A DNA stretch of 64,000 nucleotides from Arachis hypogaea (lineage: Eukaryota > Streptophyta > Magnoliopsida > Fabales > Fabaceae). The DNA lies in contig NC_092038.1 of the NCBI RefSeq assembly GCF_003086295.3, positions 101,959,837 to 102,023,836 on the forward strand. The letters are read 5' to 3'. The notes below the pieces were generated by a model. That model was not told the origin of the DNA and searched no databases. It saw only the letters and a program-made list of their open reading frames with translations. The translations under genes and the position numbers were made by a program. Within the stretch, counting starts at the first letter, position 1, and the number at the start of each line of letters is the position of its first letter. Positions 34,601 through 60,739 of this stretch are shown piece by piece.

Positions 34601-34989
34601 AATTATGTTTAGAGTTTCAACATCTGTTTCAACTTCTTCTCCAAATTATTAAGAGGTAATGTATGAGGAGGTTATTTTTCTATTTCACTTGAATGATTCT
34701 GTCTCTTTGTTTGAATGCTCTTTGAGTTATAGATAGAAGTTGCCAAGTTATAGGTATAGGTTGAATTATGCACAACAACATTATAACTCATGAAAGCCCT
34801 GACATTCTTTTGACCAAATCTCAAAATTATAAGTTACAACGTTGAGTTATAGTGATCAGATCAACGTTGATAAATTTAACTATAAAAAAAAACTAAAACT
34901 AACTTGTAATCATAAAAAGTGAATTTCGGTAGATAAAATTATTCGAACACTAAAAAATTATTCAAAATTCTAAAATTATCCCTATACCC
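31639..34989. other. AT-rich intergenic region with MITEs (right copy)
   Basis: Equivalent of 10331-13683. It contains the foldback MITE 33746-33962, and the split foldback 32667-33283 with the Tourist-like MITE 32786-33178 (TTA at 32783-32785 and 33179-33181). Lengths equal those in the left copy. No gene seen. Confidence 0.6.
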
Positions 34990-36250
34990 TGATACGGAAT
35001 TTTACCGCAAATTACCGGCAAGTGCACCGAGTCGTATCAAATAACAAGTTCATGGTGAGTGAGTATCGATCCTACAAGAATTAACGGAGTAAACAAGCAA
35101 TGATTAACTAATTATTCTAGTTAGACAAATGAAATTAAGAGTTTTGAATATCAAATAGTATAAAGACAGTGAATTGAAGAATGCAAACAACAAACATGTG
35201 AGAAAATAATATGAAAAGAGAGTTAACGCTTTGGAGATGATTAAATTTTCAAATTAACAATCATTGTCAACTACCTTGATCGTACAAAGATTTAGTTCAT
35301 GACAAACCTTAGGTGATTGAATTTCAATTCCTTGACAATTCAATCTCTTCTAACCCAATCAACCGTCAATTTCTTGATCAATCAATTGTGATAAAAGATT
35401 AAGTTCAAATTCTGATTTATAAGTCACACAATCCCTATGAACCCAAAAATAATCCAATTATATATCACGTATCACATTAATTCTTGATAATTGAAGAATT
35501 GTGAGAAAAGAGTTTCAAGCTTTAATTCCAGTGATTTAACTTTTCCAAGATTCAAAGGAATTCAATTTAGTTTAGGGTTATTTTCCAATATGCTCTAATC
35601 CATATGATGAAGAATGAAACCAATTCTTAAACAGAAATCAATGCATTAATCAAGAGTAGAAAAATAAATAGTTATTAATCCATCAAAATAAATAGAGCTC
35701 CTAACCTTAACGATGGAGATTTAGTGGCTTACGGTGCTGAGAAAATCCTCAAGTGTAAAAATGTAAATTGTAAAGTGCCGAAGTAGAGAAGAGAAAAGAG
35801 CCCGCACGGCTTCTAATCTTCCCTATTTATAGTCCTAATCCTAATTGATACAAGACTTAAATTAAAACCTAATAGTATCTTTTTCTATTTTAAAACTTGA
35901 TTTGAATTCAATTGATTCCTCCGTGTTGATCTACGCACAGACGTGGGATCACTCCAAATCTTGCTATTGGCGCTAAATGCCGGTGACACCTATCCTACAA
36001 GGTTATGTATGCTTTCCAAAGACACGGCGCTAAACGCCAGTGATGTGGCGTTTAGCGCCACCTATCCCAAGACGAATGGAGAGTTTGTGTGATCCGGCGC
36101 CAAACGCTAGTGATGTGGTATTTAGTGCCACCTTACCAAAAAACGGATACTCCGACGATCTAGTTACTCAAACCTCTCTTTGATACGGTTGCACCACAAG
36201 CATATAGCTGAAACTATAATCCCAAACATTGATGCCCAGAGCCTCTTTGG
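34990..36250 (-). mobile_element. Minus-strand LTR-like fragment hosting element 1 (right copy)
   Basis: Equivalent of 13684-14945; minus-strand TATA box at 35832-35823. Its continuation beyond element 1 may be the sequence at 55520-56782: both flanks contain a TTGATGCYCAGAGC motif close to the insertion site. Confidence 0.55.
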
Positions 36251-36255
36251 ACTGC

Positions 36256-37811
36256 CGATGAGCGGATATTTTATACACTTTTTGGGGGTAATTTCATGTA
36301 GATTTTAGTATGTTTTAATTAGTTTTTAGTAGAATATTATTAGTTTTTAGGAAAAAATAATATTTCTGGACTTTACTATGAGTTTGTGTGTTTTTCTGTG
36401 ATTTCAGGTATTTTCTGGCTGAAATTGAGGGAGCTGAGCAAAAATCTGATTTAGGCTAAAAAAGGACTGCTGATGCTGTTGGATTCTGACCTCCCTGCAC
36501 TCGGAATGGATTTTTTGGAGCTACAGGTTTCCAATTGGTGCGATCTCAATTGGGTTAGAAATTAGACATCCAGGGCTTTCCAGAAATATATAATAGTTCA
36601 TACTTTGCGCGAAGATAGATGACGTAAACTGGCATTCAACGCCAGTTCCATGTTCCAGTCTGGCGTTCAGCGCCAGAAATAGGTTACAAGTTGGAGTTCA
36701 ACGCCCAAAACACGTTACAACCTAGCGTTCAACTCCAGAAACAGCCCAAGCACGTGAGAGGCTTAAGTCTCAGCCCCAGCACACACCAAGTGGGCCCCAG
36801 AAGTAGATTTCTACACCAATTATCTTAGTCTACTCATTCTCTGTAAATCTAGGTTACTAGTTTAGTATTTAAACAACTTTTAGAGATTTATTTTGTATCT
36901 CATGACATTTTTAGATCTGAATTATATACTCTTTGACGGCATGAGTCTCTAAACTCCATTGTTGGGGGTGAGGAGCTCTACAGCGTCTTGATGAATTAAT
37001 GCAATTGTTTATGTTTTTCCATTCAAACATGCGTGTTCTTATCTAAGATGTTCATTCGCGCTTAATTATGGAGAAGGTGGTGATCCATGACACTCATCAC
37101 CTTCCTCAATCCATGAACGTGTGCCTGACAACCACCTCCATTCTACATCAGATTGAATGAGTATCTCTTAGATTCCTTAACCAGAATCTTCGTGGTATAA
37201 GCCAGATTGATGGCGGTATTCATGAGAATCCAGAAAGTCTAAACCTTGTCTGTGGTATTCCGATAGGATTCTGGGATTGGATGACTGTGACGAGCTTCAA
37301 ACTCGCGAGTGTTGGGCGTGATGACAAACGCAAAAGAATCAATGGATTCTATTCCGACATGATCGAGAACCAACAGCTGATTAGCCGTGCTGTGACAGAG
37401 TATTTGGACCATTTTCACTGAGAGGATGGGAAGTAGCCATTGACAACGGCGACACCCTACATAGAGCTTGCCATGGAAGGAACTTTGCATTTTGCTATTG
37501 AGTTGAATATTACATTACAGGAATTCAGAAGACAACACCTCTCCAAAACTCCAACATATTCTCCATCACTGCACAACAAGTAATCATTTCGCACTCTTTT
37601 ATTTTTCTAATAAGTCAAACTGATAATTATAATTGATATCCTAACTAAGAATAATAAAATAAACATAGCTTGCTTCAAATTAATAATCTCCGTGGGATCG
37701 ACCCTTACTCACGTAAGGTATTACTTGGACGACCCAGTGCACTTGTTGGTTAGTGGTACGAAATCATAAGAAATCTTGATTTTGATATTAGGATTAAAAT
37801 TTCGTGCATCA
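36256..37811 (+). mobile_element. 5' LTR of element 1
   Basis: 1556 bp ending GTGCATCA, with a mutated first base (CGATGAGCGG). GGCG-type palindromes lie at 36631, 36662, 36693 and 36724, exactly 31 apart. The U5 hairpin CCTTAC-TCAC-GTAAGG is at 37703-37718. Confidence 0.88.
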
Positions 37812-37817
37812 AGTTTT

Positions 37818-37835
37818 TGGCGCCGTTGCCGGGGA
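37818..37835 (+). other. Primer-binding site, tRNA-Asp (element 1)
   Basis: TGGCGCCGTTGCCGGGGA is the exact complement of the 3' end of plant tRNA-Asp including CCA, starting 7 nt after the LTR end. Athila-type elements are known to use this primer. Confidence 0.9.
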
Positions 37836-38786
37836 TTATTCGAGTTTGAACAACTAAAGATTTATTTTGTTGCTTAGATTAGGAATATAGTATTGATGCT
37901 ATAGAGTCATTAAATTTGAGTCCTTTAATTTCTCTTCAAAATTTTTTCAAAAATATTACTTTTCCTTATTAATTTTTAATTTTTCGTGAGTTAGTGTCTT
38001 TTTCTAAGTTTGGTGTCAATTGCATATTTTATATTTTCCTTTTAAATTTTTGAATTTGTGTTCTTTTATCTTCAAGTTGTTCTTGTTTATTTTTCTTGTT
38101 TGATTTTTAGTTTTTCTTGTTCTGTGTCTTTTCTTGTTTTTCTTGTTCTTTTCCAAAAGCATTAGTCTTCCAAAAGGAATAATATAAATATACCTCTTCA
38201 AAACAAGTGTTACATTTATAGCTCAGTTGGCTAGAGCGTTGGCTTATGTTCTTGGCAATTGGGTATCTTCCTTTTAAAACCTTTTTTCAAAAATAATTTT
38301 TCTCTGATTAAATCTTGTGCCAAACTTTAAGTTTGGTGTTTTCTTGTTAATCTTTCTTTAATTTTCTAAAAATTTTAAGTTTGGTGTTCTTTCTATTGTT
38401 CTTGGCGTTCTTGTGAATCTTCAAGGTGTTCTTGAGTCTTTCTTTGTGTTTTGATCTTAAAATTTTTAAGTTTGGCGTTCCTTGGTGTTTTCCCTCCAAA
38501 ATTTTTGAAAACAAGGAGCATTAGATCTAAAAATTTTAAATCTTGTGTCTTTTGTGTGTTTTTCTCTTTCATCATAAAATTCAAAATTCAAAAAAATATC
38601 TTTTCTAACTATTTTTAAGCCATATTTTCGAATTTTTTTTATAAAAATTCAGATTTCAATTTCAAAATTTTTCAAATCTTATCCTTTTAAGATTTTTAAA
38701 AAAATATTTATTATATCTTTTTCAAAACAAATCTATATCTTTTCCTTCTTAAAATCTTTTCAACTCATAAATATCTTTTTTCAAAT
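37836..38786 (+). other. Leader of element 1, truncated
   Basis: T-rich, with recurring AAGTTTGGTGTT motifs, an 8-bp hairpin CCAAACTT-T-AAGTTTGG (38320-38336) and a tRNA-like A-box at 38219-38230. It should lead into gag but joins antisense gag at about 38787. Confidence 0.7.
38215..38258 (+). other. tRNA-like D-arm with pol III A-box in the leader (element 1)
   Basis: TAGCTCAGTTGG matches the A-box consensus and the flanking GCTC/GAGC form a perfect D-stem. No B-box follows within 60 nt, so this is a tRNA-derived 5' part, not a tRNA gene. The homologous site in element 2 is 40823-40834. Confidence 0.6.
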
Positions 38787-38865
38787 CTTTGTGAGTCCAA
38801 CCATATCCTAGCTCTGTCTCTTACAGCAAAAGGGAATAGCATAAGTCTGTAGACCTCAGGGTCAA
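38787..38865 (-). pseudogene. gag fragment of the minus-strand element, left of element 2
   Basis: Minus-strand translation gives a typical Athila gag core segment. Its frame continues exactly from the gag fragment at 51475-51083 once element 2 and one GTCAA are ignored, so element 2 inserted in this gag. The similarity stops at about 38787, where plus-strand leader sequence of element 1 begins. Confidence 0.75.
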
Positions 38866-40389
38866 TGATGAGCGGATATTTTATACGCTTTTTGGGGGTA
38901 ATTTCATGTAGATTTTAGTATGTTTTAACTAGTTTTTAGTAGAATATTATTAGTTTTGAGGCAAAAATCATATTTCTGGACTTTACTATGAGTTTGTGTG
39001 TTTTTCTGTGATTTCAGGTAATTTCTGGCTGAAATTGAGGGAGCTGAGCAAAAATCTGAGTTAGGCTGAAAAAGGACTGCTGATGCTGTTGGATCCTGAC
39101 CTCCCTGCACTCGGAATGGATTTTTTGGAGCTATAGGAGTCTAATTGGTGTGCTCTCAACGGCGTTGAAAACTAGATATCCAGGGCTTTCCAGCAATATA
39201 TAATAGTCTATACTTTGCGTGAAGATAGACGACGTAAACTGGCGTTTAACGCTAGTATCATGCTGCTGTCTGGCGTCCAGCGCCAGAAACAGGTTATAAG
39301 TTGGAGTTCAACGCCAGAAACAGGTTACAACCTGGCGTTGAACGCCCAAAACAGCCCCAAGCACGTGAAAAGCTTAAGTCTCAGCCCCAGCACACACCAA
39401 GTGGGCCCCAGAAGTGGATTTCTGCACTATCTATCATGGTTTGCTCATTTTCTGTAAACCTAGGTTATTAGTTTACTATTTAAACAACTTTTAGAGATTT
39501 ACTTTGGACCTGATGACATTTTCAGATCTGAATTTTATACACTTTGACGGCATGAGTCTCTAAACTCCATTGTTGGGGGTGAGGAGCTCTGCAGCGTCTC
39601 AATGAATTAATGCAATTGTTTCTATTTCATTCAAACGTGTGTGTGTTCCTATCTAAGATGTTCATTCGCGCTTAATTGTGAAGGAGGTGATGATCCGTGA
39701 CACTCATCACCTTCCTCAATCTATGAACATGTGCCTGACAAACACCTCCGTTCTACATCAGATTGAATGAGCATCTCTTAGCTTCCTTAATCAGAATCTT
39801 CGTGGTATAAGTTAGAACTGATGGCGGCCATTCTTGAGGATCCGGAAAGTCTAAACCTTGTCTGTGGTATTCCGAGTAGGATTCAAGGATTGAATGGCTG
39901 TGACGAGCTTCAAACTCGCGATTGCTGGGCGTGATGACAAACGCAAAAGGATCAATGGATCCTATTCCAACATGATCGAGAACCAACAGCTGATTAGCTG
40001 TGCTATGACAGAGCATCTGGACCGTTTTCACTGAGAGGATGGGAAGTAGCCACTGACAATGGTGACACCCTAGATACAGCTTGCCATGGATGGAACTTTA
40101 CAAATAATTGAGTTGAATATTACATTGCAGAAATTCAAAGGACAAAGCATCTCCAAAGCTCCAACATATTCTTCATTAATAAAGTAACAATTCCTTATTC
40201 CAAACACTTTTACTTCTTACAATTAAATCCAAATAATCTTATTGGCATCCTGACTAAGATTAATAAAATAAACATAGTTTGCTTCAAACCAATAATCTCC
40301 GTGGGATCGACCCTTACTCACGTAAGGTATTACTTGGACGACCCAATGCACTTGCTGGTTAGTTGTACGGATTACAAATTGGTGCACCA
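38866..40389 (+). mobile_element. 5' LTR of element 2
   Basis: 1524 bp from TGATGAGCGG to GGTGCACCA. GGCG-type palindromes lie in about 39240-39350 at 31-nt spacing; the U5 hairpin is at 40312-40327. Confidence 0.93.
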
Positions 40390-40395
40390 AGTTTT

Positions 40396-40413
40396 TGGCG
40401 CCGTTGCCGGGGA
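40396..40413 (+). other. Primer-binding site, tRNA-Asp (element 2)
   Basis: TGGCGCCGTTGCCGGGGA, an exact 18-nt complement of the tRNA-Asp 3' end, 7 nt after the LTR. Confidence 0.92.
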
Positions 40414-41365
40414 TTATTTGAGTTTGAACAACTAAAGGTTTATTTTGTTGCTTAGATTAGGAATAATTTATTTTTGTTGTTATAGAGTCATTAAATTCTG
40501 AGTCCTTTATTCCCTTTTCAAAAAATTTTTCAAAAATATATTATTTTTCTTTATCAATTTCTAATTTTCGTGAGTTTAGTGTCTTGTTCTAAGTTTGGTG
40601 TCAATTGCATGTTTTTCCTTATCATTTAATTTTTCGAATTGCATGTTCTTGTTCTTCCTTGATCTTCAAATTGTTCTTGTCAATTTTTCTTGTTTGATCT
40701 TTGGTTTGTCTTGTTCTGTGTCTTTTCTTGTTTTTCTTGTGCTTTTTCAAAATAGTAGTTTTCAAAAAAAATTTTTTTTCTTATCTATAAAAATAATACA
40801 TCTTTAAAATACGTTACATTTGTAACTCAGTTGGCTAGAGCGTTGGCTTATGTTCTTGGCAAGTGGGTATCTTCTTTTTAAAATCTTTTCTTCAAAAATA
40901 ATTTTTCTTGATTTAATCTTGTGCCAAACCTTAAGTTTGGTGTTTTCTTGTTGATCTTTCTTTAATTTTCGAAAATTTATCTTGGTTTTCTAAACAAATT
41001 TTAAGTTTGGTGTTCTTTCTTTTGTTCTTGAGTCTTTCTTGTGTTTTGATCTTAAAATTTGTAAGTTTGGTGTTTCTTGGTGTTTTCCCTCCAAAATTTT
41101 TGAAAATAAGGAGCATTGGATCTAAAAATTTTAAGTCTTGTGTCTTTTGTGTGTTTTTCTCTTTCATCATAAAATTCAAAATTCAAAAAAATATCTTTCC
41201 TAACTAATTTTAAACTACATTTTCGAAAATTTTATATAAAAATTCAGATTTCAATTTCAAAATATTTTCAATTTCTTTTATTTATTTCGTTTTTATTTTA
41301 TTTTATAAAATAAATTTTTATAAAATAAATAATATCAACATACATATCATCTCCCTTGTTCTATC
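40414..41365 (+). other. Leader of element 2
   Basis: T-rich untranslated leader. AAGTTTGGTGTT-type motifs occur at 40591, 40933, 41003 and 41063. The tRNA-like A-box TAACTCAGTTGG with its D-stem is at 40823-40834. There is no open frame before the gag ATG at 41366. Confidence 0.7.
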
Positions 41366-42854
41366 ATGGAATTAAGTGGAAATGAACCATCCAGAAAGAC
41401 TCTGGGGTCATATGCTAACCCCACTACTGCTTCATATGGGAGCAGTATATGTATACCCTCCATTGGAGTTGGTAGTTTTGAGTTGAATCCTCAGCTCATT
41501 ATCATGGTGCAGCAAAGCTGTCAGTATTCCGGTCTTCCACATGAAGAACCTACAGAGTTTCTGGCACAATTTTTACAAATTGCTGACACAGTACATGATA
41601 AAGAAGTAGATCAGGATGTCTACAGATTATTACTGTTTCCATTTGCTGTAAAAGATCAAGCTAAGAGGTGGTTAAATAACCAACCTAAGAACAGCATAAA
41701 GACATGGAAACAGCTGTCAAAAAAATTCCTGAATCACTATTTTCCTCCAAAACGGATGACACAGCTAAGGCTAAGCATCCAAGGCTTCAAACAAGGAGAT
41801 AATGAATCCCTTTTCAGAGTGGGTACAATTAGACATCTTCTACTATGGGCTTACAGAAAAAGCTCAGATTTCTCTAGATCACTCAGCTGGTGGATCTATA
41901 CATATGAGAAAAACAATTGAAGAAGCTCAAGAGCTTATTGATACAGTTACCAGAAATCAGCATCTATACCTAAGCAGTGAATCTTCCATGAAAGAAGAAG
42001 CTAAAACAGTAACTGCTGAACTCAGTCCTGTAGATCAAGCTAATGAGTTCAATCAGCAATTAGACTTTCTAACTCAGCAGCTAGCTGAATTCAAGGAAAT
42101 ACTACAGGAAACAAGAATGGCTAACAGGAATATGGAAGTACAGTTAAAGCAAACAGAAAAGCAACTGTCAAAACAAATAACAGAAGAATGCCAAGCAGTT
42201 CAATTAAGAAGTGGGAAAACATTAGATACCTCACTTCAAGGCAGCAAGAAGCCAAGAAATGAACAAATGGCTACTCAAAATCCCTTTGAGGACAATCAGA
42301 GCCTAGAGAGGAATAAAGCTGGCGCTGAACGCCCAGACCATGCTCATTTCTGGCGTTCAACGCCAGAAACAAGCATGAATTCGGAGTTGAACGCCCAAGG
42401 GAAGCACAGTTCTGGCGTTCAGACGCCAGTAACAGATAAGGAGTTGGCGTCTAACGCCACTCCAGCTTCCACCTCTGGCATTCAAACGCCAGTGCGGGAT
42501 CAGTCACATACAAGTGCTGATAACAACCCTTCTAAAAAGGCTTCCCAACCCACTTCTACAGGTAATAAACCTGCAGCAACCAAGGTTGAGGAATACAAAG
42601 CCAAAATGCCTTATCCTCAAAAACTCCGCCAAGCGGAACAGGATAAGCAATTTGCCCGCTTTGCAGACTATCTCAAGACTCTTGAAATAAAGATTCCGTT
42701 TGCAGAAGCACTTGAGCAAATACCCTCTTATGCTAAGTTCATGAAAGAGATCTTAAGTCATAAGAAGGATTGGAGGGAGATTGAAAAAGTTTACCTCACT
42801 GAAGAATGCAGTGCAGTCATTCTGAGAAGCTTAAAGATCCCGGGAGCTTCATGA
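41366..42854 (+). pseudogene. gag: gag of element 2, frameshifted
   Basis: Capsid-type polyprotein. The ATG at 41366 opens a frame with the retrotransposon gag core (AKRWLNNQPKNSIKTW pattern, about residues 113-128). At about 41815 the frame changes and family-typical sequence is missing, consistent with a small deletion. The second frame runs to 42854 with a coiled, Gln/Glu-rich middle and a basic C-terminal part. Six GGCG-type palindromes, 31-32 nt apart, lie inside the coding sequence (42321-42490). No CCHC zinc knuckle is visible. A second frame change near 42825 separates it from protease; the two frames overlap at 42806-42854. Confidence 0.85.
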
Positions 42855-45800
42855 TACCATGCACATTAGAGGGTAATTGCACCAAGCAAGCTCTATGTGA
42901 CCTTGGGGCAAGTATCAACCTAATACCTGCATCTATTATCACAAAGCTTGGTTTGACTGAAGAAGTCAAACCAACCCGGATATGTCTTCAACTTGCTGAT
43001 GGCTCCATTAAATACCCATCAGGCGTGATTGAAGACATGATTGTCAAGGTTGGGTCATTTGCCTTTCCTACTGACTTTGTGGTGCTGGAAATGGAGGAGC
43101 ACAAGAGTACAACTCTCGTTTTAGGAAGACCTTTCCTAGCAACTGGCCGAACCCTCATTGACGTCCAAAAAGGGGAAGTAACCCTGAGAGTCAATGAGGA
43201 GGAGTTCAAGTTGAATGTTGTCAAAGCTATGCAACATCCAAACACCCCAAATGACTGCATGAGTGTTGATATCATTGACTCTCTGGTAAGAGAGGTCAAT
43301 ATGGCTGAGAGTCTCGAATCAAAACTAGAGGACATCTTTAAAGATGTTCAGCCTGACTTAGAGGAAGCAGAGAGAATAATAGAACCTCTGAAAATCCCTC
43401 AAGAAGAGGAGAAACCTCCCAAACCCGAGCTCAAACCATTACCACCATCCCTGAAATATGCATTTCTGGGAGAAGGTGATACCTTTCCTGTAATCATAAG
43501 CTCTACCTTAGAACCACAGGAAGAGGAAGCACTAATTCAAGTGCTAAGGACACACAAGACAGCTCTTGGGTGGTCCATCAGTGATCTTAAGGGCATTAGT
43601 CCAGCCAGATGCATGCACAAGATCCTATTGGAGGGTGACGCCAAGCCAGTGGTCCAACCACAAAGGCGGCTGAACCCAGCCATGAAGGAAGTGGTGCAGA
43701 AGGAGGTTACTAAATTACTAGAGGCTGGGATTATTTATCCTATTTCTGACAGCCCCTGGGTAAGCTCTGTCCATGTCGTCCCTAAGAAGGGAGGCATGAC
43801 AGTGGTTCATAATGAAAAAAATGAACTGGTTCCTACAAGAACAGTTACAGGGTGGCGTATGTGTATTGATTATAGAAGGCTCAACACAGCCACCAGAAAG
43901 GATCATTTTCCTTTACCATTCATAGACTAGATGCTAGAAAGACTAGCAGGTCATGAATACTACTGCTTCCTGGATGGATATTCAGGTTATAATCAAATTA
44001 CAGTAGATCCCCAGGATCAGGAGAAAACGGCATTCACATGTCCATCTGGAGTATTTGCATACAAAAGGATGCCATTTGGCCTGTGCAATGCACCTGCAAC
44101 CTTTCAGAGGTGCATGCTCTCAATTTTCTCTGATATGGTGGAAAAATTTATGAAAGTTTTCATGGATGACTTTTCAGTATTTGGAGACTTATTCAGCTCC
44201 TGTCTTGACCATCTAGCACTTGTTCTAAAGAGATGCCAAGAGACCAACCTAGTTTTAAACTGGGAGAAATGTCACTTTATGGTGACTGAAGGAATTGTCC
44301 TTGGGCACAAAATCTCGAACAAAGGAATAGAGGTGGATCAAGCTAAGGTAGAGGTAATTGAAAAATTACCACCACCAGCCAATGTTAAGGCAATCAGAAG
44401 CTTTCTGGGGCATGCAGGATTGTATAGGAGGTTTATAAAGGACTTCTCAAAAATCGCCAAACCTCTAAGCAATCTGCTAGCTGCTGACACGCCATTTATC
44501 TTTGATAAGGAGTGTCTGTAGGCGTTTGAGACCCTGAAAGCTAAGCTGGTCACAGCACCAGTCATCTCTGCACCAGACTGGACATTACCATTTGAATTGA
44601 TGTGTGATGCTAGTGACCATGCCATTGGTGCAGTATTGGGACAGAGGCATGACAAGCTTCTGCACATCATTTACTATGCCAGTCGTGTTTTAAATGACTC
44701 ACAGAAGAATTACACAACCACAGAAAAAGAGCTGCTTACAGTGGTTTACGCCATTGACAAGTTCAGATCCTATTTGGTAGGATCAAAAGTAATTGTGTAC
44801 ACTGATCATGCTGCTCTTAAATATCTACTCACAAAGCAGGATTCAAAACCCAGACTCATCAGATGGGTGTTGCTTCTGCAAGAGTTTGATATAGAAATAA
44901 GAGATAGAAAAGGGACAGAAAACCAAGTAGCAGATCACCTGTCCCGAATAGAACCAGTAGAAGGGGCGTCCCTCCCTCTCACTGAGATCTTTGAGACCTT
45001 TCCGGATGAGCAACTCTTTGCCATCCAGGAAGTGCCATGGTTTGCAGACATTACAAACTACAAGGCAGTAAGATTCATACCCAAAGAGTATAGTAGGCAG
45101 CAATCAAAGAAGTTGATCACAGATGCAAAGTACTATCTTTGGGATGAACCATATCTCTTCAAGAGATGTGCAGACAGAGTAATCCGTAGATGTGTGCCTA
45201 AAGAAGAAGCACGGAGAATCCTATGGCATTGTCATGGATCACAGTATGGAGGACATTTTGGAAGTGAGCGAATAGCCACAAGAGTCCTCTAATGTGGCTT
45301 CTACTGGCCTACTCTCTATAAAGATTCCCGAGTGTTTGTGCTTAATTGCGATAGTTGCCAAAGATCTGGCAATCTACCTCACAGTTATGCCAGGCCTCAA
45401 CAAGGGATCTTGGAGATTGAGTTGTTTGATGTATGGGGTATTGACTTCATGGGACCTTTCCCACCATCATACTCAAACACTTATATTCTGGTGGCAGTGG
45501 ATTATGTATCCAAATGGGTGAAAGCTATTGCAACACCTACTAATGACACTAAAACAGTGTTAAAATTCCTCCAGAAACACATCTTCAACAGATTTGGTAC
45601 CCCTAGAGTATTAATCAGTGATGGGGGCACTCATTTCTGCAATAAACAGCTTTACTCTACTTTGGTTCGTTATGGAGTTAGCCACAGGGTAGCCACTCCA
45701 TATCATCCACAGACAAATGGGCAAGCTGAAGTCTCTAACAGAGAACTTAAAAGAATCCTGGAACGGACTGTAATTAACCGTAGAAGGGATTGGGCAAGAA

Positions 45801-46303
45801 GCTTAGATGATGCTTTGTGGGCATACAGAACAGCATTCAAGACCCCTATAGGGACCTCTCTATACCAGCTTGTGTATGGAAAGGCATGTCACTTGCCAGT
45901 GGAACTGGAACATAAGACCTACTGGGCAACCAGATTCCTGAACCTTGATGCCAAGTTAGCTGGAGAAAAACAATTGCTTCAGTTAAATGAGCTAGAGGAA
46001 TTTAGACTCAATGCTTTCGAGAATGCAAAAATTTATAAAGAGAAAGCAAAAAGATGGCATGATAAGAAATTGTCATCCAGAGTCTTTAAGCCGGGGCAGA
46101 AAGTTCTGCTATTTAATTCTAGGCTCAAATTATTCCCCGGGAAATTAAAATCCCGGTGGAGAGGTTCATATGTAATTACAAGTGTATCACCATATGGATA
46201 CGTAGAGCTTCAGGATAATGACTCTAACAAAAAGTTCATTGTTAATGGACAATATCTTGAAAGCAATTTTGAGCAAGAATGCTCAAAACTGAGACTTAAT
46301 TAA
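42806..46303 (+). pseudogene. pol: pol of element 2: protease, RT, RNase H, integrase, three in-frame stops
   Basis: A single frame throughout. Protease with active-site DLGAS, Asp codon at 42899. Reverse transcriptase with FMDD at 44159-44170. RNase H starting with the CDAS motif near 44600. Integrase with an HHCC zinc finger (about 45229-45365) and catalytic residues D 45443, D 45620, E 45728; the last two are spaced as DD35E. A basic C-terminal domain closes it, without an obvious chromodomain. Stops: TAG 43928-43930 in RT, TAG 44519-44521 between RT and RNase H, and TAA 45290-45292 inside the zinc finger. The frame is open on both sides of each. In the family each stop lies where a Gln codon is usual, so each could be one C-to-T change. 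The element is not autonomous as it stands. Confidence 0.93.
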
Positions 46304-46344
46304 AGCTCAGTAATAGTCCAGCTAACGACATTAAAGAAGCGCTT

Positions 46345-46362
46345 GCTGGGAGGCAACCCAGC
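46345..46362 (+). other. Post-pol hairpin of element 2
   Basis: GCTGGG-AGGCAA-CCCAGC, a 6-bp perfect stem 42 nt after the integrase stop. The pol-less element has GGTGGG-AGACAA-CCCACC at the equivalent place (60005-60022), with one compensatory pair change. Confidence 0.7.
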
Positions 46363-46520
46363 CAATCACAAAATTTAATTTTATTCGTTTTGATTAATTA
46401 ATTGATTTTTACAGGTATATGTCAAAGTATCTTCAAGGTAAAATAGCAATTGATTGGATTCACAGAGTTACAAGGGAATTTGGAAGCTCACTGGCATGAA
46501 AAAGCCAGTAAGAAACATTT

Positions 46521-46821
46521 TGGGCGTTGAACGCCCAAAAGAAGCACCCACTGGGCGTTCAACGCCAGTAAGGGTAGCCATCTGGGCGTTAAACGCCAGA
46601 AAGGAGCGTCTTCTGGGCGTTGAACGCCAGAAAGAAGCACCTTCTGGGCGTTTAATGCCAGAACTACAGCATCCTGGGCGTTTAGAAAAACGCTCAGTGA
46701 CAAAGGACTTCCTGGCGTTCAACGCCAGAAAGAAGCAACAGCTGGGCATTGAACGCCCAGGAGAAGCATCAATTGGGCGTTAAACGCCTAAAACGTGCAG
46801 CAGTTGGGCGTTTAACGCCAG
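46521..46821 (+). repeat. Array of ten GGCGTTNAACGCC palindromes, 31-nt period (post-pol)
   Basis: Units begin (first G of the GG core) at 46522, 46553, 46584, 46615, 46646, 46676, 46714, 46744, 46775 and 46806. Steps are 30-31, except one of 38 where the unit itself carries 7 extra bases. Spacers differ in sequence. The period is not a multiple of 3, which argues against coding. Confidence 0.92.
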
Positions 46822-47367
46822 GATGGTGGGGAGGAGGTAAAATTCGTTTTCCTTTACAAATTTTCTAATTTTTTATGTTTCAAATCATGATTTCTTGCAT
46901 AAACATGTTTCAAAATGTCATCCTTCAAATCATAATAGTTTTCTAAGAACCCTGATTTCTAAAATCCCTTTTTCAAAAATAATAGAGCTTCATACATAAA
47001 CATAAACCTTTTTCCAATCCAATCCAACTCTTTTTCCAATTTCTTTTTAAACTTAATTATCTTTTAAAATCTTTTTCAAATTATAAATTTCAAATTTATT
47101 TTTAAATATCATTCATATCTTTTTAAATTATACCCTTTTCTTGTCATATTTATCTTTTATAAATCATATCTTTTATCTTATATCTTTTCTTATTTTCGAA
47201 AACCCACCCCCTCCCTTTAAATCCACTTTCGGCGCCCCTCTCATCATCCACCATTCCACACCTGCTCTCCTTCTATCCCTCTTCTCTCTTTTCTTTTGCT
47301 TGAGGACAAGCAAACCTCTAAGTTTGGTGTGCTTATCCGTGATCACAAAAACATACTCACTTTGATC
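46822..47367 (+). other. Non-coding region upstream of the extra ORF
   Basis: AT-rich to about 47200, then a pyrimidine-rich tract (47200-47295). A hairpin TTGCTTG-AGGA-CAAGCAA follows at 47296-47313, then six bases, then AAGTTTGGTGTG at 47320-47331. The same module lies at the 3' end of the element. The CT tract resembles a splice acceptor or an internal 5' UTR. Confidence 0.6.
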
Positions 47368-48429
47368 ATGGCCCCTAAAGGAAAACAACCCAACCCAAGA
47401 GGTAAGAAAGAGAATATTCCAAAACCACTTTGGAATCAAGGGAAGTTCTTAACTAAAGAACATTCAGACCATTACTACAAAATAATGAGTCTAAGATCAG
47501 TGAACCCGGAAGTCAAGTTCGATCTGAAAGAAGATGAATATCCGGAGATCCAAGAACAAACTCGAAACAGGAACTGGGAAATCCTAGCTAATCCTGAAAT
47601 GAAAGTGGGAAGAAATATGGTTCAGGAGTTCTATGCAAATCTATGGCAGACAGACAGGCAAAGAATAATTGGAGCTGCCCTCTATGATCATCGGACCTTA
47701 GTCAGAGGAAAGATTGTTCACACCCATCCTGACAAAATCAGGGAGATCTTTAAGCTTCCTCAACTGAAGGATGACCCAGACTCCTTTAATAGGAGAATGA
47801 TGAGGGTAAACAAAGGCCTGGACAAGATTCTAGAGGATATATGTATCCCAGAAGCCAGGTGGACCACCAGCACAACTGGCATCCCAAATCAACTCAAAAG
47901 AGAAGATCTCAAACCAGCTGCCAGAGGCTAGCTGGATTTCATTGGGCGTTCCATATTGCCCACCAGCAACCGTTCTGAAGTTACTGTTAAAAGAGCAGTG
48001 ATGATTCACTGTATCATGTTGGGAAAAGAAGTAGAAGTCTATCAACTGATCTCGTGTGAACTATACAAAATAGCAAATAAGAATTCCAAGGACGCCAGAT
48101 TGGCCTATCCAAGCTTAATTTCTATGCTCTGCAGAGATGCCGGAGTGAAGATGGGAATAACAGAATATATTTCAGTTGAGAGGCCAATCACTAAAATATC
48201 AATGGAAAGACAACAGCTGCAGGATGATCCAATCAAGAAGAGAGCACAAGAAGTCCTCCCAGAACTTCCTCAATTCGAATATTGGGAACATCTTGAAGCA
48301 TCTATTTCCAAATTGCAAGAAGCTATGAACCAAATAAAGGAAGAACAGAACAATCAAAGTAGCATGCTTTGCAAACTGCTTAAGGAACAAGAAGAGCAAG
48401 GGCGTGATTTAAGGGAGCTGAAGCGCTAG
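47368..48429 (+). pseudogene. Athila-type extra ORF ('putative plant transposon protein'), one stop
   Basis: Lies where retroviruses have env. ATG at 47368; one frame to 48429 (353 codons), broken by TAG at 47929-47931, where Trp is usual in the family. It resembles the domain annotated as putative plant transposon protein in Athila/Tat elements; the function is not established. The N-terminus is basic (MAPKGKQPNPRGKK) and the C-terminal 45 residues are a likely coiled coil rich in Glu, Gln and Leu. I see no signal peptide or membrane helix, so an envelope role is not supported by the sequence. Similar to the ORF at 62016. Confidence 0.8.
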
Positions 48430-49558
48430 AAATTAATCCTTGAAGGACCAAGCACCCCACAGATCAAGGAACATCTACTTCCCAAAACACAGGTTGTTGA
48501 GTTCTAATTTTAGCTTTAACTCTGTGATAGTATTATTATAGAAATTTACCTTAGAAGATATATAGTAGTAGTAGTAATTAGCATATCTATTCTGGTTTTA
48601 TTTCCAATTAAGTTATAATTTATTTTTCTCATCATCATCAGACATGAATAAAGTAGTAGATTTTTAGAATAAAGAAGTAATTTATATTTTTCGAGTTCTT
48701 AATAATAAAAATTATAATTAATTACATGTGGTGGCAATACTTTTTGTTCTCTGAATGAATGCTTGAACAGTGCATATTTTATCCTGAATTTGAAGAATGT
48801 TGGCTCCTGAAAGAATGAGGAACACGAAAAATATTATTGATGATCTGAAAAATCATGAATTTGATTCTTGAAGCAAGAACAAGCAGTAAAAAAAAAAGTT
48901 ACAAGGAATCATTAGATCAAGAAGAGGAACAAAAGCCAATAGCCCTTAAAACCAAAAGGCAAGGGTGAAAAGGATCCAAGGCTTTGAGCATCAGTGGATA
49001 AGAGGGTCCAAGGAAGTAATTCCAGGCCTAAGCGGCTAAATCAAGCTGTCCCTAACCATGTGCTTGTGGCATGCAGGTCCAAGTGAAAAACTTGAGACTG
49101 AGTGGTTAAAGTCGTGATCCAAAGCAAAAAGAGTGTGCTTAAGAGCTCTGGACACCTCTAACTGGGGACTTTACCAAAGCTGAGTCACAATCTAAAAAGG
49201 TTCACCCAATCATGTGTCTGTGGCATTTATGTATCTAGTGGTAATACTGGAAAACAAAGTGCTTAGGGCCACGGCCAAGACTCATAAAGTAACTGTGTTC
49301 AAGAATCAACATACTACACTAGGAGAATTAATAATACTATCTGAATTCTAAATTCCTATGGATGCCAATCATTCTGAATTTCAAAGGATAGAGGGAGATG
49401 CCAAAACTATTCAGAAACAAGAAGCTACAAGCCCCGCTCATCAAATAAGAATCTGAGCTCATTTAAAACTCTAAGATATTATTACTTCTTAATTTCTTTT
49501 CATCCTATTTTATTTATGTAGTTGCTTGAGGACAAGCAACAGTTTAAGTTTGGTGTTG
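48430..49558 (+). other. 3' untranslated region of element 2
   Basis: Non-coding, AT-rich then mixed. It ends with hairpin TTGCTTG-AGGA-CAAGCAA (49522-49539), six bases, and AAGTTTGGTGTTG (49546-49558), directly abutting the 3' LTR. There is no polypurine tract at the usual place. Confidence 0.7.
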
Positions 49559-51082
49559 TGATGAGCGGATATTTTATACGCTTTTTGGGGGTAATTTCAT
49601 GTAGATTTTAGTATGTTTTAACTAGTTTTTAGTAGAATATTATTAGTTTTGAGGAAAAAATCATATTTCTGGACTTTACTATGAGTTTGTGTGTTTTTCT
49701 ATGATTTCAGGTAATTTCTGGCTGAAATTGAGGGAGCTGAGCAAAAATCTGAGTTAGGCTGAAAAAGGACTGCTGATGTTGTTGGATCCTGACCTCCCTG
49801 CACTCGGAATGGATTTTTTGGAGCTACAGGTTTCCAATTGGCGTGCTCTCAATGGAGTTGGAAGGTAGACATCCAGGGCTTTCCAGGAATATATAATAAT
49901 CCATACTTTGCGCGAAGATAGATGACATAAACTGGTGTTCAACGCCAGTATCATGCTGCTGTCTGGCGTCCAGCGCCAAAAACAGGTTACAAGTTGGAGT
50001 TCAACGCCAGAAACAGGTTACAACCTGGCGTTGAACGCCCAAAACAGCCCCAAGCACGTGAAAAGCTTAAGTCTCAGCTCCAGCACACACCAAGTGGGCC
50101 CCAGAAGTGGATTTCTGCATTATCTATCATGGTTTACTCATTTTCTATAAACCTAGGTTATTAGTTTACTATTTAAACAACTTTTAAAGATTTACTTTGG
50201 ACCTGATGACATTTTCAGATCTGAATTTTATACACTTTGACGGCATGAGTCTCTAAACTCCATTGTTGGGGGTGAGGAGCTCTGCAGCGTCTCAATGAAT
50301 TAATGCAATTGTTTCTATTTCATTCAAACATGTGTGTGTTCCTATCTAAGATGTTCATTCGGGCTTAATTGTGAAGGAGGTGATGATCCGTGACACTCAT
50401 CACCTTCCTCAATCCATGAACGTGTGCCTGACAAACACCTCCGTTCTACATCAGATTGAATGAGCATCTCTTAGCTTCCTTAATCAGAATCTTCGTGGTA
50501 TAAGCTAGAACTGATGGCGGCCATTCTTGAGGATCCGGAAAGTCTAAACCTTGTCTGTGGTATTCCGAGTAGGATTCAAGGATTGAATGGCTGTGACGAG
50601 CTTCAAACTCGCGATTGTTGGGCATGATGACAAACGCAAAAGGATCAATGGATCCTATTCCAACATGATCGAGAACCAACAGCTGATTAGCCGTGCTGTG
50701 ACAGAGCATCTGGACCGTTTTCACTGAGAGGATGGGAAGTAGCCACTGACAATGGTGACACCCTACATACAGCTTGCCATGGATGGAACTTTACAAACAA
50801 TTGAGTTGAATATTACATTGTAGAAATTCAGAGGACAAAGCATCTCCAAAGCTCCAACATATTCTTCATTAATAAAGTAACAATTCCTTATTCCAAACAC
50901 TTTTACTTCTTACAATTAAATCCAAATAATCTTATTGGCATCCTGACTAAGATTAATAAAATAAACATAGTTTGCTTCAAACCAATAATCTCCATGGGAT
51001 CGACCCTTACTCACGTAAGGTATTACTTGGACGACCTAGTGCACTTGCTGGTTAGTTGTACGGATTACAAATTCGTGCACCA
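49559..51082 (+). mobile_element. 3' LTR of element 2
   Basis: 1524 bp from TGATGAGCGG to CGTGCACCA, followed by GTCAA. GGCG-type palindromes begin at 49934, 49965, 49996 and 50027, exactly 31 apart. About 47 substitutions from the 5' LTR, mostly transitions. Confidence 0.93.
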
Positions 51083-51475
51083 GTCAACCCCATTAGTCTT
51101 GACAGTGTCACAGATTTGCAAGAATTCAGCTAAAAACTGATGAGGATCTTCCAATGGAAGTCCATGGAACTTGTAATTCTGTTGCATTAGAGAAACTAAT
51201 TGAGGCTTAAGCTCAAAGTTGTTTGCTCCAATGGCAGGGATAGAGATACTTTTCCCATAGAAGTCGGGAGTAGGTGTAGTAAAGTCACCCAGCACCTTCC
51301 TTACATTGTTGGCATTGTTGTTGTTTTCGGCTGCCATGTCTTCTTCTTGTTTGAAGATTTCTGTTAGGTCCTCTACAGAGAATTGTGCTTTAGCTTCTCT
51401 AAGCTTTCGCTTCAAGGTCCTTTCAGGTTCAGGGTCAGCCTCAACAAGAATGCTTTTGTCTTTGCTCCTGCTCAT
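51083..51475 (-). pseudogene. gag: gag N-terminal part of the minus-strand element
   Basis: ATG at 51475 on the minus strand. The protein opens basic and acidic, then shows the same Athila gag pattern as element 2 (segments such as SISIPAIGANNFELKPQLV and FLAEFLQICDTV). It stops where element 2 inserted, at the GTCAA duplication, and continues in frame at 38865-38787. The remaining gag and all of pol are gone. Confidence 0.82.
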
Positions 51476-52997
51476 ATGAAAGAGAAGAAAATAAGAAAAT
51501 ATGGAATCCTCTATGTCACAGTATAGAGATTCCTTGAGGTGTCAGAGGAAAAGAAAAATAGAAGGAGAAGGTAGAAGAATTCGAACTTATCAAGAGGGAT
51601 AGAGTTCGGATTGTGCATGTTAGTCCATAAATAGAAGGACGTGAGAAGAGGGGAAGAAATTTTCGAAAATTAAAGTGAATTAATTAAAAGAAATTTTGAA
51701 AAATGGTAATTGATTTTCGAAAACCAAGAGTGGGAAAGAAATTAAGTAATTTTTGAAAAAGATTTTGAAATTAGAAAGCAAAAAGATATGATTGAAAACT
51801 ATTTTGAAAAAGATGTGATTAAAAAGATATGATTGAAAAGTTATAGTTTTAAAAAGATATGATTGAAAAGATATGACTGAAAAACAATTTAAAAAGATTT
51901 GATTTTTAAAATTAATGACTTGGCTAACAAGAAAAGATATGATTCAAACATTAAACCTTTCTCAACAGAAAAGGCAACATACTTGAAATATTGAATCAAA
52001 TCATTAATTGTTAGCAAGTATTTTTGAAAATGGAAAGAAATTGATTTTGAAAATATATGATTGAAAAGATATGATTTGAAAAAGATTTGATTTTGAAAAA
52101 CTATGAAAACTTGAAAAAAAATTGAATTAAAAACAGAATCTTCCCTCTTGTGCCATCCTGGCGTTAAACGCCCAGAATGGTATCCATTCTGGCGTTTAAC
52201 GCCCAAAATGCTACCCTTTTGGGTGTTAAACGCCCAGCCAGGCACCCTGGCTGGCGTTTAAACACCAGTTTTCCTTTCTTACTGGGCGTTTTGAACGCCC
52301 AGCTTTTTCTGTGTAATTCCTCTGCTGTATGTTCTGAATCTTCAATTCTCTGTATTATTGACTTGAAAAGACACAAATTAAAAAATTTTTTGGATTTTTT
52401 TAATGATCAAAATGCAACTAAAATCAAATAAACAATGCATGCAAGACACCAAACTTAGAAGTTTGTACACTACTGACACTAACAAATTGAGAATGCATAT
52501 GAGAAACAACAAAAAACACAAAACAAGAGAATTTAAAGATCAGAGCAAGTAAATCATCAAGAACAACTTGAAGATCAATGAAGACACATGAATGAATTCG
52601 AAAAATGCAAGATGAACAGAAACATGCAATTGACATCAAACTTAAAATGAGACACTAGACTCAAACAAGAAATATTTTTGGTTTTTTTATGATTTTGTAA
52701 ATTTTTTTGGATTTTTCAAAAATTATATGGAAAAGAAAATAAAGAGATTCAAAATTTTTAATAAGAATTTCAGGAATCATGCAATGTTAGTCTAAAGCTT
52801 TAGTCTAAAGAAATTAGACATGGCTAGCCAAGTTTCAGCAGGACATTACATTCAAGAGCTAAATTGATGAAAATCAATCAGTTTTGGTGATGATAAGAAC
52901 ATCACCTTGAAACTCTAGAATTCATTCTTAAAAATTCTGAAGAAAAATATCTAATCTAAGCAACAAGATGAACCGTCAGTTGTCCAAACTCAAACAA
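51476..52997 (-). other. Leader of the minus-strand element with palindrome array
   Basis: Untranslated, between PBS and gag. A GGCG-type array at 52160, 52191, 52222, 52253 and 52285 has steps of 31, 31, 31 and 32. AAGTTTGGTGTC on the minus strand is at about 52446-52457. AT-rich elsewhere; no gene seen. Confidence 0.75.
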
Positions 52998-53021: not shown

Positions 53022-54622
53022 TGGTGCACGAAATTGTGATCATCAATGGCCCCATCAACATGGTACACTCAATTATAATCTCAACTCTTTATCACAACTT
53101 CGCACAACTAACCAGCAAGTGCACTGGGTCGTCCAAGTAATAAACCTTACGCGAGTAAGGGTCGATCCCACGGAGATTGTTGGTATGAAGCAAGCTATGG
53201 TCATCTTGTAAATCTCAGTCAGGCGAACTCAAATGGTTATGGAGGATAACATAAAACATAAAATAAGGATAGAGATACTTATGTAATTCATTGGTGAGAA
53301 TTTCAGATAAGCGTATGGAGATGCTTTGTCCCTTCCGTCTCTCTGCTTTCCTACTGTCTTCATCCAATCCTTCTTACTCCTTTCCATGGCAAGCTGTATG
53401 TTGGGCATCACCGTTGTCAATGGCTACAGTCCCGTCCTCTCAGTGAAAATGTTCAACGCGCTCTATCACAGCACGGCTATTCAGCTGTCGGTTCTCGATC
53501 ATGTCGGAATAGAATCCAGTGATTCTTTTGCGTCTGTCACTAATGCCCCACAATCGCGAGTTTGAAGCTCGTCACGGTCATTCAATTCTCGAATCCTACT
53601 CAGAATACCACAGACAAGGTTTAGACCTTCCGAATTCTCTTGAATGCCGCCATCAATTCTAACTTATACCACGAAGATTCCGGTTAAGAAATCCAAGAGA
53701 TATCCACTCAATCTAAGGTAGAACGGAGGTGGTTGTCAGGCACATGTTCATTGGTGAGAATGATGATGAGTGTCACAGATCATCACATTCATCAAGTTGA
53801 GGAACAAGTGATATCTTAGAACAAGAATAAGCTGAATTGAATAGAAGAACAATAGTAATTGCATTGATACTCGAGGTACAGCAGAGCTCCACACCTTAAT
53901 CTGTGGTGTGTAAAAACTCCACCGTTGAAAATACATAAGTGATAATGGTGATCATTGGCTTCGGCCCCAGAGAGGGAACCAGAAGAACCAAGATGAAAAT
54001 ACAATAGCAAAAGGTCCTATTTATAGAGAACTAGTAGCTTAGGGTTTACAAAAATGAGTAAATGACATAAAAATCCACTTCCGGGCCCTCTTGGTGTGTG
54101 TTTGGGCTGAGCATTGAAGCTTCTATGTGTAGAGACTTTTCTTGGAGTTAAACGCCAGCTTTTGTGCCAGTTTGGGCGTTTAACTCCCATTTTTGTGTCA
54201 GTTCCTGCGTTTAACGCCGGGCAGTCTTGAGCTGAATTGGAATGCCGGTTTGGGCTATCAAATCTCAGGCAAAGTCTAGACTATTGTATATTGCTAGAAA
54301 GCCCAGAATGTCTACTTTCCAACGCAATTAAGAGCGCACCAATTGGGCTTTTGTAGCACCAGAAAATCCACTTCGAGTGCAGGGAGGTCAGAATCCAACA
54401 GCATCTGCAGTCCTTTTCAGCCTCTGAATCAGATTTTTGCTCAGGTCCCTCAATTTCAGCCAGAAAATACCTGAAATCACAGAAAAACACACAAACTCAT
54501 AGTAAAGTCCAGAAAAGTGAATTTTAAATAAAAAATAATAAAAATATAATAAAAACTAACTAAAACATACTAAAAACATACTAAAAACAATGCCAAAAAG
54601 CGTATAAATTATCCGCTCATCA
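53022..54622 (-). mobile_element. 5' LTR of the minus-strand element
   Basis: 1601 bp; on the minus strand it starts TGATGAGCGG at 54622 and ends CGTGCACCA at 53022. TATA box CTATAAATAG at 54026-54017. Palindromes at 54144, 54175 and 54206 (31-nt steps). U5 hairpin at 53145-53160. It lies inside the 3' LTR of element 1; the base after it (54623) resumes that LTR. Confidence 0.87.
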
Positions 54623-56782: not shown

Positions 56783-58253
56783 TGATAAACCCATATTTTA
56801 TGACATATTTTGTGCTGAATTTAAGTGATTTATTCAATCCTTCATCCACTTATGCATGTGAAATTACATGGTTTTACTTTCCCTTCTTATTATGTGATGT
56901 ATGTGAAAAACATGTTTCCTAGGCTTTAAAAATATTAATTTTAATTACCTTGTATTTCCATTCGATGCCGTGATTTGTGTGTTAAGTATTTTCAGATCTT
57001 CTAAGGCAGGAATGATTTAAAGGATGGAAAGGAGACATACAAAAATGGAAGGAAAGCATAAAATGGAGTTTTTGAAGAAACTGGCAGTGACGCGTCCGCA
57101 TGGACGACGCGGACGCGTGGTTCGCACAAAAAGGGATCGACGCGAGCGCATGGATGAGGCGAATGCGTGACTCGCAAAATACAATTGACGCGGGCGCATG
57201 ACTGACGCAACCGCGTGGAAGGACAACACTCCAGATGACGCGACCGCGTGACCCACGCAGACGCGTGACGTGCGCGATCTGTAGAATTTGCAGAAGTTGT
57301 CCTCAGCGATTTTCAGGCCTTTTTGGCCCAGATCCAAACCCAGAGGACACAGATTGAAGGATTATAAATGGAAGGATCCACCCATTCATGAAGGAGGAGA
57401 AAAATACACAATTTTAGGATTTAAATGTAGTTTTTAGTGAGAGAGGTTCCCTCCTCTCTCTTAGGATTAGGATTAGGATTTTTAGAACTTAGGAATATTT
57501 TTATCTCATCTTTATATCAGGTTCAATATCTTTTTATTTCGACTTCTCTTAATTGTTGATTATTGATGTTGCTTATTTGGCTTATGACTCTTCATATTTG
57601 GATTGATTTTATTTTATTAATGCAATTGAGGTATTTCAGACTTATATGTTATTGATGCTTGGGCTCTATCCAAATTATTTTCATTCAAGTAGATTTTATT
57701 CCCTTTTGGCTTTGGTTGATTAATTGGTAACTCTTGAGTTGTCGAACTCAGCAGTGATTGAAATTGGCAGATTCTAATTGATCTAGTTCGCTCTAAAACT
57801 AGTCTTCCCATAGGGATTGACTAGGACTTGAGGATCAAACTAATTAGTCCACTTGACTTTCCTTTGCTTTAGTAAAGGTTAACTAAGTGGAAGAAAAATC
57901 CAATTCTCATCACAATTGATAAGGACAACTGGATAGGACTTCCAGTTTTCATACATTGCCAAGAGTTTCTATTAGATATTAATTTATTAATTCTTGCAAT
58001 CTATTTCGCTTGCTTAAAACCTTTTTAAAACCCCAAAATATACCTCTGCATAACCAATAATAAGAACACCTCCTTGAAATTCCTTGAGAAGACGACCCGA
58101 GGTTTAAATACTTCGGTTATCAATTTTCTCAGGGTTTTGTTACTTGTGACAACCAAGTGTTTGTACGAAGAGATTTTCTGTTGGTTTAGAATCTATGCTT
58201 ACAACGCTACTATATTTTTATAAAATTCTTTACTAGCAAAAATCCTAACGTCA
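56783..58253 (+). mobile_element. 5' LTR of the pol-less element
   Basis: 1471 bp from TGATAAACCC to TAACGTCA. GACGCG-type palindromes form doublets at 57089/57106, 57187/57204 and 57237/57254, each 17 nt apart; a diverged pair at 57139/57156 keeps nearly the same spacing. The doublet period is 48-50 nt. U5-type hairpin CCGAGGT-TTAAAT-ACTTCGG at 58097-58116. Related to the solo LTR at 1211-2691. Confidence 0.85.
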
Positions 58254-60022: not shown

Positions 60023-60159
60023 ATGGTATGATCGTTCCCCCTCTGTTTTGCTCTGTTTCTGAATTTTGTTTGAACTTGAAGTTTTTGCACGACATTCACT
60101 GTATTTTGCATCCTGCATACTGCATAAAAAAAGAGAGAAAGCACGTGACACGACAGCAT

Positions 60160-60720: not shown

Positions 60721-60739
60721 ATTGCAATTTATTAACCTC

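Follow-up and report, generated by a model that had tools for sequence, protein, structure and literature searches.

We analysed a window of 64,000 nucleotides of the Arachis hypogaea genome, which holds a full-length Athila-type Ty3 retrotransposon, here called element 2 (Table 1). Its LTRs are 1,524 bp each and 96.9% identical, its termini are TGATGAGC...GTGCACCA (TG...CA), and GTCAA flanks it on both sides (38861-38865 and 51083-51087). The Pfam domains run in the order gag (PF03732), protease, RT, RNase H, integrase and a PF20167 ORF, and the reading frames of this copy are interrupted. The PF20167 match in the third ORF falls into two halves in a single frame with one stop separating them.

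The assignment to Athila is by layout, from the Ty3 order, the long LTRs and the third ORF after pol. A Sirevirus is excluded, as RT and RNase H precede the integrase in the Ty3 and not the Ty1/copia order. The primer binding site is presumably the Athila/tRNA-Asp one, and we take the third ORF to stand where Athila/Calypso elements have their env-like gene. This positional comparison comes partly from an excerpt of PMC1142308.

Table 1. Element 2 and the dyad arrays of the window
Feature	Position	Strand	Remark
U3 array in LTR of element 1	36631..36736	+
Element 2, full-length Athila-type Ty3 retrotransposon	38866..51082	+	12,217 bp; carries arrays
5' LTR of element 2	38866..40389	+
U3 array of 5' LTR, element 2	39241..39346	+	four units (one perfect), 31-nt steps, CpG-island-like
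TATA-like box TATTTAAA	39477..39484	+	pattern match only; 130 bp downstream of the U3 array
Primer binding site TGGCGCCGTTGCCGGGGA	40396..40413	+	element 2
gag region	41333..42854	+	two open stretches that overlap in different frames, the first with PF03732
gag array	42321..42490	+	six units, steps 31, 31, 31, 32, 31; second gag stretch, upstream of protease
RT	43931-44518	+	Pfam, element 2
RNase H	44522-45289	+	Pfam, element 2
Integrase (end of PF17921, PF00665)	45293..46303	+	Pfam match 45293-46300, stop at 46303; 217 nt upstream of the main array
Main array	46521..46821	+	ten palindromic units between integrase and third ORF
Third ORF, PF20167 'putative plant transposon protein'	47221..48429	+	element 2
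3' LTR of element 2	49559..51082	+
U3 array of 3' LTR, element 2	49934..50039	+
Array in leader of minus-strand element	52160..52299	-	five units; three of four spacers themselves dyads
Array in LTR of diverged minus-strand element	54144..54218	-	three units, homologous place

Two further elements carry arrays, namely element 1, which is apparently truncated and has a U3 array in its LTR, and a diverged relative on the minus strand. The nearest named gag relatives among the matches listed are from A. duranensis, A. hypogaea and A. stenosperma. Positions 1-19770 and 21392-41118 are 99.1% identical duplicates with a 1000-N gap at 19773-20772 between them, perhaps an assembly artefact rather than a biological duplication. 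Pairs of GGCGCTAAACGCC/GGCGTTTAGCGCC recur with a 21-nt step at 35969-36129, upstream of the element 1 LTR, and in the duplicate at 14664.

Within element 2, a short inverted repeat, CTGGGAGGCAACCCAG, lies directly after the integrase stop (46346-46361). Repeats of AAGTTTGGTGT are found at 40591, 40933, 41003, 41063, 47320 and 49546, some within the leader and others ahead of the third ORF and of the 3' LTR. They may be related to the extra polypurine tract of the Athila4/Calypso linkers (PMC2829016, in part).

The main array is composed of seven exact copies of GGCGTTNAACGCC, two copies with one mismatch and one interrupted by extra bases in its centre. A first-pass annotation of this DNA had reported ten dyads after the integrase with steps of 31, 31, 31, 31, 30, 38, 30, 31 and 31, and the same steps are obtained by counting from the T of TGG. 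It had ascribed the step of 38 to 7 extra bases within one unit, and the interrupted dyad indeed has a 7-base gain. The arrays it had listed at 36631, 49934, 54144 and 52160 are likewise present with 31-nt steps, and it had missed the 5' LTR and gag arrays of element 2.

Allowing up to one mismatch, the whole window holds 38 dyads against 0.02 expected (100 shuffles). Of these, 8 fall in the 99.1% duplicate of 21392-41118, which doubles dyad counts. Only one of the four dyads in each element 2 LTR is perfect. The dyad centre is 1 base long, or 2 in gag, 3 in the minus-strand leader and 8 in the interrupted unit. A two-dyad pattern matched no viral contig and five bacterial ones, the latter taken as chance.

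The dyad 13-mers are printed in no paper of the open-licence PMC library searched, and the arrays are undescribed in its titles and abstracts on palindromes or tandem repeats of Arachis, Athila and Ty3 elements, among the matches listed. The motif is also absent from the available parts of PMC10578108 (enod40), PMC1142308 (Diaspora) and PMC13175896 (peanut genomes).

The arrays are a degenerate tandem repeat. Their spacers had been called unrelated in sequence, but those of the main array are 43% identical in register (0.433), against 27.5% (0.275) either shuffled or circularly shifted (0/5000 each), as measured on trimmed spacers of nine of the ten units with the interrupted one left out. The spacers in register are 0.45–0.54 identical in the LTR arrays against 0.26–0.27 (p at most 0.0004) and 0.314 in the gag array against 0.242 (p 0.012). 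Tandem Repeats Finder reports 46521-46788 with a period of 31, 8.5 copies, 69% matches and 11% indels. Spacers that align as a 31-bp tandem repeat are the very outcome that had been named beforehand as speaking against the phasing proposed for these palindromes.

The spacers align also between arrays, as compared with every between-dyad spacer except those adjoining the interrupted and shortened main units (7 from the main array, 5 from gag and 9 from the LTRs, the last including several near-identical copies). Identity is 0.430 against 0.271 for main and LTR spacers and 0.359 against 0.269 for gag and LTR spacers (0/2000 shuffles each), and weaker for main and gag spacers, 0.357 against 0.273 (p 0.01). 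Since the spacers align across its three arrays, a single repeat is the most likely ancestor of all the arrays of element 2 compared here. The main spacers resemble also those of the minus-strand leader (0.347 against 0.274, p 0.03), which match neither gag nor LTR spacers (p 0.66 and 0.98). The minus-strand LTR spacers match none of the main, gag and LTR ones (p 0.89, 0.88 and 0.46). As judged by these alignments, the arrays arose by tandem multiplication of a 31-bp unit, whose spacers drifted with the dyad GGCGTT-N-AACGCC kept.

Two comparisons among the copies within the 64,000-nt window support a stronger preservation of the palindromes than of the intervening DNA. Inside the main array, the 12 arm positions deviate 2/108 times over nine units and the spacers 32/126 times over seven spacers (Fisher p 1e-7). 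The centre base is free (G3, C2, A2, T2), and the TT and AA beside it are kept in 9/9 scored units. Uneven divergence of this kind speaks against a purely neutral 31-bp repeat, for which even divergence along the unit is expected.

The other comparison sets the U3 of element 2 against that of the minus-strand subfamily. Three of the four dyads, the last three being chosen as the minus-strand element has three, are 32/36 identical (0.89) against 0.39–0.45 for the spacers and about 0.75 for the rest of the LTR. This dyad identity alone is unexceptional, because at least 0.86 is reached by 30% of the 36-column windows in the remainder of the LTR; what is notable is how far the spacers fall below it. 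A dyad-minus-spacer difference as large as the observed 0.50 occurs in 0.08% of 1247 overlapping control placements in the same alignment. The minus-strand element has not retained the first LTR dyad, so that all four together are 38/48 identical, 0.79 versus 0.75. Closer LTR pairs have no excess dyad conservation, neither element 1 versus element 2 (0.90 vs 0.89–0.90 for the rest) nor the 5' versus the 3' LTR of element 2 (46/48 vs 0.97).

The CpG content also sets the arrays apart. The main array has an observed-to-expected CpG ratio of 0.93, the gag array 0.87 and the 5' LTR 0.64, against 0.24 in gag-pol and 0.27 downstream of the main array. By an island test in 150-nt windows (GC at least 0.5 and CpG ratio at least 0.6), the stretches of element 2 that pass are 39221-39400, 42271-42560, 46461-46860 and 49901-50090, namely its four arrays only, and the longest of them, 46461-46860, encloses the main array. 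The minus-strand LTR array is not island-like (GC 0.46–0.49). The whole window has 23 island-like stretches, and 6 of the 15 examined are without a CpG dyad.

Between LTR copies, CpGs are retained more in the dyads than elsewhere in 6/6 ordered comparisons, although the counts are small. The values are 4/4 against 17/37 from the minus-strand element to element 2 and 4/6 against 17/29 in reverse, 5/5 against 23/33 and 5/6 against 23/29 in the element 1 comparisons, and 6/7 against 24/32 and 6/6 against 24/29 between the two LTRs of element 2.

The gag array lies in coding sequence, an unusual place to weigh DNA-level dyads against protein coding. Because each 31-nt step moves on to another frame, its dyads are translated as GAERP, WRSTP, ELNA, GVQTP, ASNA and GIQTP. 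Of 145 gag relatives from two protein searches, 31 have two or more of these peptides no further than 70 nt apart, 10 of 120 among the matches listed by the first and 21 of 25 added by the second, which is not a prevalence because the query of the second search was itself an array carrier. Three of the 31 are named, all from A. hypogaea. No named gag protein of another genus among the matches listed is a carrier, and several Arachis-named relatives also lack the array peptides.

The carriers imply 83 steps of up to 70 nt, namely 31 (43), 32 (27), 30 (3), 33 (3) and 61–68 (7), by peptide patterns that were loosened by hand and with each peptide pair permitting steps of one class modulo 3. Since the frame limits the measurable steps, these relatives attest the array in other copies and not free spacing. 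GVQTP and ALNA alternate in many carriers with a 63-nt in-frame period.

Our preferred reading, in which our confidence is about even, is that the arrays are cis-regulatory dyad boxes of an Arachis Athila-type Ty3 retrotransposon, akin to the RM boxes of Sireviruses and multiplied by tandem duplication. It is favored because of the conserved arms, the CpG islands, the position upstream of the TATA-like box and the Sirevirus precedent. The box TATTTAAA of element 2 aligns with TATAAATA in the diverged minus-strand LTR, where the TATA-like box is 118 bp downstream of the array. A TATATA upstream of the U3 array of element 2 also fits the TATA pattern.

Tandem duplication multiplied the 31-bp unit, with related arrays in U3, in gag and in the stretch between the integrase and the third ORF. 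The spacers drifted, and the dyad would be kept by a dimeric protein binding it as DNA. The putative binder would be a host transcription factor, an element-coded protein being less likely. The U3 array would act on the TATA-like box some 120–130 bp downstream, driving transcription from it or conditioning it, and the array ahead of the third ORF could act as an internal promoter or enhancer. Rows of many weak sites would raise the occupancy. On this reading, the 31-nt step is a by-product of the tandem duplication and carries no phasing signal. The dyads are candidate sites, probably bound by protein as DNA.

Several observations count against the dyad boxes. The centres vary among 1, 2, 3 and 8 bases, which a rigid dimer should not tolerate. 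The minus-strand LTR array is not CpG-island-like, and some islands of the window have no dyads. The coding location of the gag array is odd for a promoter box. The unexceptional dyad identity as such, the lack of excess conservation in close LTR pairs, the loss of the first LTR dyad in the minus-strand element, the single perfect dyad per element 2 LTR and the strong RNA folding of the main array weigh in the same direction.

The first-pass annotation knew of no described system of this kind, but the Sirevirus RM boxes come close. According to the compared parts of Bousios et al. 2010 (PMC2829016), RM boxes are palindromes in 13 elements with 8–32 copies, and 117 of 127 LTR copies are in the upper LTR half. 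They are the sole CpG islands in 7 elements, with the TATA box on average 37 bp past the island. The core is CGG-CCG in 12 of the 13 described, and the flanks diverge as the boxes stay. Extra copies lie between pol and ENV in elements with an ENV gene. RM boxes are termed Sirevirus-specific in a copia set, and a common binding factor was not found.

As compared with these parts of PMC2829016, element 2 likewise has multi-copy short palindromes with a CG-rich core, and its 4 + 6 + 10 + 4 units, not all perfect, reach at least 8 copies. Its LTR cluster is in the upstream half, at positions 376-481 of 1524, and the TATA-like box, recognised only by its pattern and alignment, is at 612. Its islands are its four arrays, although the LTR array of its minus-strand relative fails the test. 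One array lies between the integrase and the PF20167 ORF, which is only putatively env-like.

The differences, on the same parts of that source, are also several. The host here is Ty3/Athila-type whereas Sireviruses are copia, and the core here is GGCG-TTNAA-CGCC (GGCG-CGCC) instead of CGG-CCG. The step is near-constant at 31 nt with traceable tandem-repeat spacers, whereas RM spacing is unstated there. Element 2 has an extra array inside gag, and its TATA-like box is about 76 bp past the island and not 37 on average.

A similar layout in Ty3 with a different core would suggest that plant retrotransposons with a third gene have converged on dense CpG palindromes close to their two ends. It would also give a second sequence-defined case, GGCGTTNAACGCC, for seeking a binding factor, as none in common was found for RM boxes (PMC2829016, in part). 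More broadly, the CpG-palindrome boxes of Arachis Ty3/Athila, in U3, before the third ORF and in gag, with its frame bent through alternating 31/32-nt steps and rotating frames so that the DNA dyads are kept, may have arisen independently of the copia Sireviruses, with one factor opening or demethylating the element and the dyad code serving as a general anti-silencing device of plant LTRs. We consider this extension fairly unlikely as a whole.

The BII box of Tnt1 has a unit length of 31 bp. These boxes are repeated in U3 and are reported to bind defence-induced nuclear factors (PMC3316501, in part), and they are arranged in tandem (PMC2829016, in part). The repeated boxes in U3 are the likeness to element 2, but Tnt1 is a copia element of tobacco and is likened by layout, not by sequence. 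The target motifs of VANC proteins in VANDAL elements could serve as a model for how such arrays arise. There too, a short motif is multiplied by tandem repeats in non-coding parts, and it is recognised where it is dense, but VANDALs are DNA transposons whose motif, YAGTATTAY, differs from the palindrome here and whose binding protein is element-coded (PMC5735166, in part).

Instead of DNA sites, the conserved thing might be hairpins of RNA or nascent single-stranded DNA, for packaging, for translation or splicing control, or as small-RNA templates for silencing. A template role has been proposed for Sirevirus palindromes, and those of maize are small-RNA hot spots (PMC10760457 and PMC5311732, in part), a precedent in its favor. 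The main array folds strongly as RNA (z -10.6, 0/100 shuffles) and so does the minus-strand leader (z -9.9, 0/200 shuffles), but this is expected anyway because any DNA dyad folds as RNA. The interrupted unit has turned into a stem with a loop. The would-be loop, the TT/AA at the centre, is nevertheless kept in all nine scored main units.

The arm deviations decide little for hairpins. Over 31 dyads, with changes shared by LTRs counted once and longer-centre dyads left out, independent deviations comprise 4 G-U, 7 A-C and 6 transversions, hence G-U is favored no more than A-C. The four dyads left out would add 3 G-U and 1 A-C by eye, supporting hairpins more, yet the totals become 7 versus 8. 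The flanking bases extend the dyads beyond permuted flanks (p 0.016, or 0.0005 with a bulge allowed, an option chosen after looking), again in the direction of hairpins.

Strong spacer pairing occurs in the minus-strand leader. There, three of the four spacers form dyads with sequences of their own, such as CCAGAATGG-ATA-CCATTCTGG and CCAGCCAGG-GTG-CCTGGCTGG, with pair scores of 7, 6 and 7 of 8 (shuffle 0/4000, arm permutation p 0.08). Pooled with the main array, the spacer pairing has a shuffle p of 0.002 and an arm permutation p of 0.16. It is absent in the main array alone (arm permutation p 0.93, shuffle p 0.28), and all 25 spacers give no general covariation signal (p 0.68 and 0.16, respectively), spacer pairing being absent outside the leader. 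On balance, we lean to conservation as DNA rather than RNA and regard the hairpins as possible but somewhat unlikely.

A functionless minisatellite in the hypervariable 3' region of plant Ty3 elements is improbable. Its dyads would persist by quasi-palindrome correction or template switching in reverse transcription. The arrays are tandem repeats, and the constancy of the step is the neutral expectation. The spacer dyads of the minus-strand leader resemble correction products, and the close LTR pairs are without excess dyad conservation. Among Retand elements of recent activity, about half carry tandem arrays in the stretch from pol to the 3' LTR (PMC11963269, in part), a precedent for such a minisatellite.

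Correction, however, keeps complementarity but lets the sequence drift, as in the spacers of the minus-strand leader, whereas a single arm sequence persists from array to array and between subfamilies. The uneven divergence within the unit (2/108 vs 32/126), the CpGs retained in a CpG-poor element and the presence in U3, gag and the stretch between pol and the third ORF are all unexpected for a minisatellite. The main array shares its location with the known post-integrase tandem arrays of non-chromovirus Ty3 elements, but a conserved dyad in a drifting unit is undescribed in the parts of that literature compared, and element 2 has arrays also in U3 and gag.

The first-pass annotation had read the 31 nt, about three helical turns, as suggesting same-face binding of a dimeric protein on DNA, or else evenly spaced RNA hairpins. 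In the phasing version, the distance itself would be selected, placing dimers on one face of DNA or a nucleosome. The 31-nt step recurs in the U3, gag, pol-ORF3 and leader arrays, and the 31 gag relatives imply steps of 31 in 43/83 and of 32 in 27/83 cases, as such phasing would have it. The spacers are, however, homologous inside arrays and also from one to another of the three in element 2, and these steps can therefore be inherited from one repeat, and the step needs no helical cause because it equals the unit length. In gag, steps of 31 and 32 preserve the frame.

The length changes are informative here. LTR copies in the window have one internal indel for every 17–24 substitutions, and between the 5' and 3' LTRs of element 2 there are 47 substitutions and no indel. 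With 32 substitutions in seven main spacers, about two length changes are therefore expected over the main array, against three observed, namely two losses of a single base and a gain of 7 bases within a dyad. The steps 30 + 38 + 30 displace the later sites by 5 bases, about half a helical turn, a net shift that the array has tolerated. Selected same-face phasing is thus unneeded, the spacers being homologous and length changes about as frequent as the substitutions predict, and very improbable. The earlier proposal of dyads retained for protein binding is supported by the conserved arms beside drifting spacers and by the array positions, but selection of the 31-nt phase is not supported.

Two other CpG-rich stretches of the window may be control regions of another element. 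In 57021-57390, a tandem repeat with a 50-bp unit occupies 57088-57217, and TATAAA lies beyond it near 57363; no perfect dyad of this stretch passes the threshold applied. Positions 60131-61080 contain six CpG dyads such as TGACGCGAACGCGTCA, versus 0.4 in shuffles.
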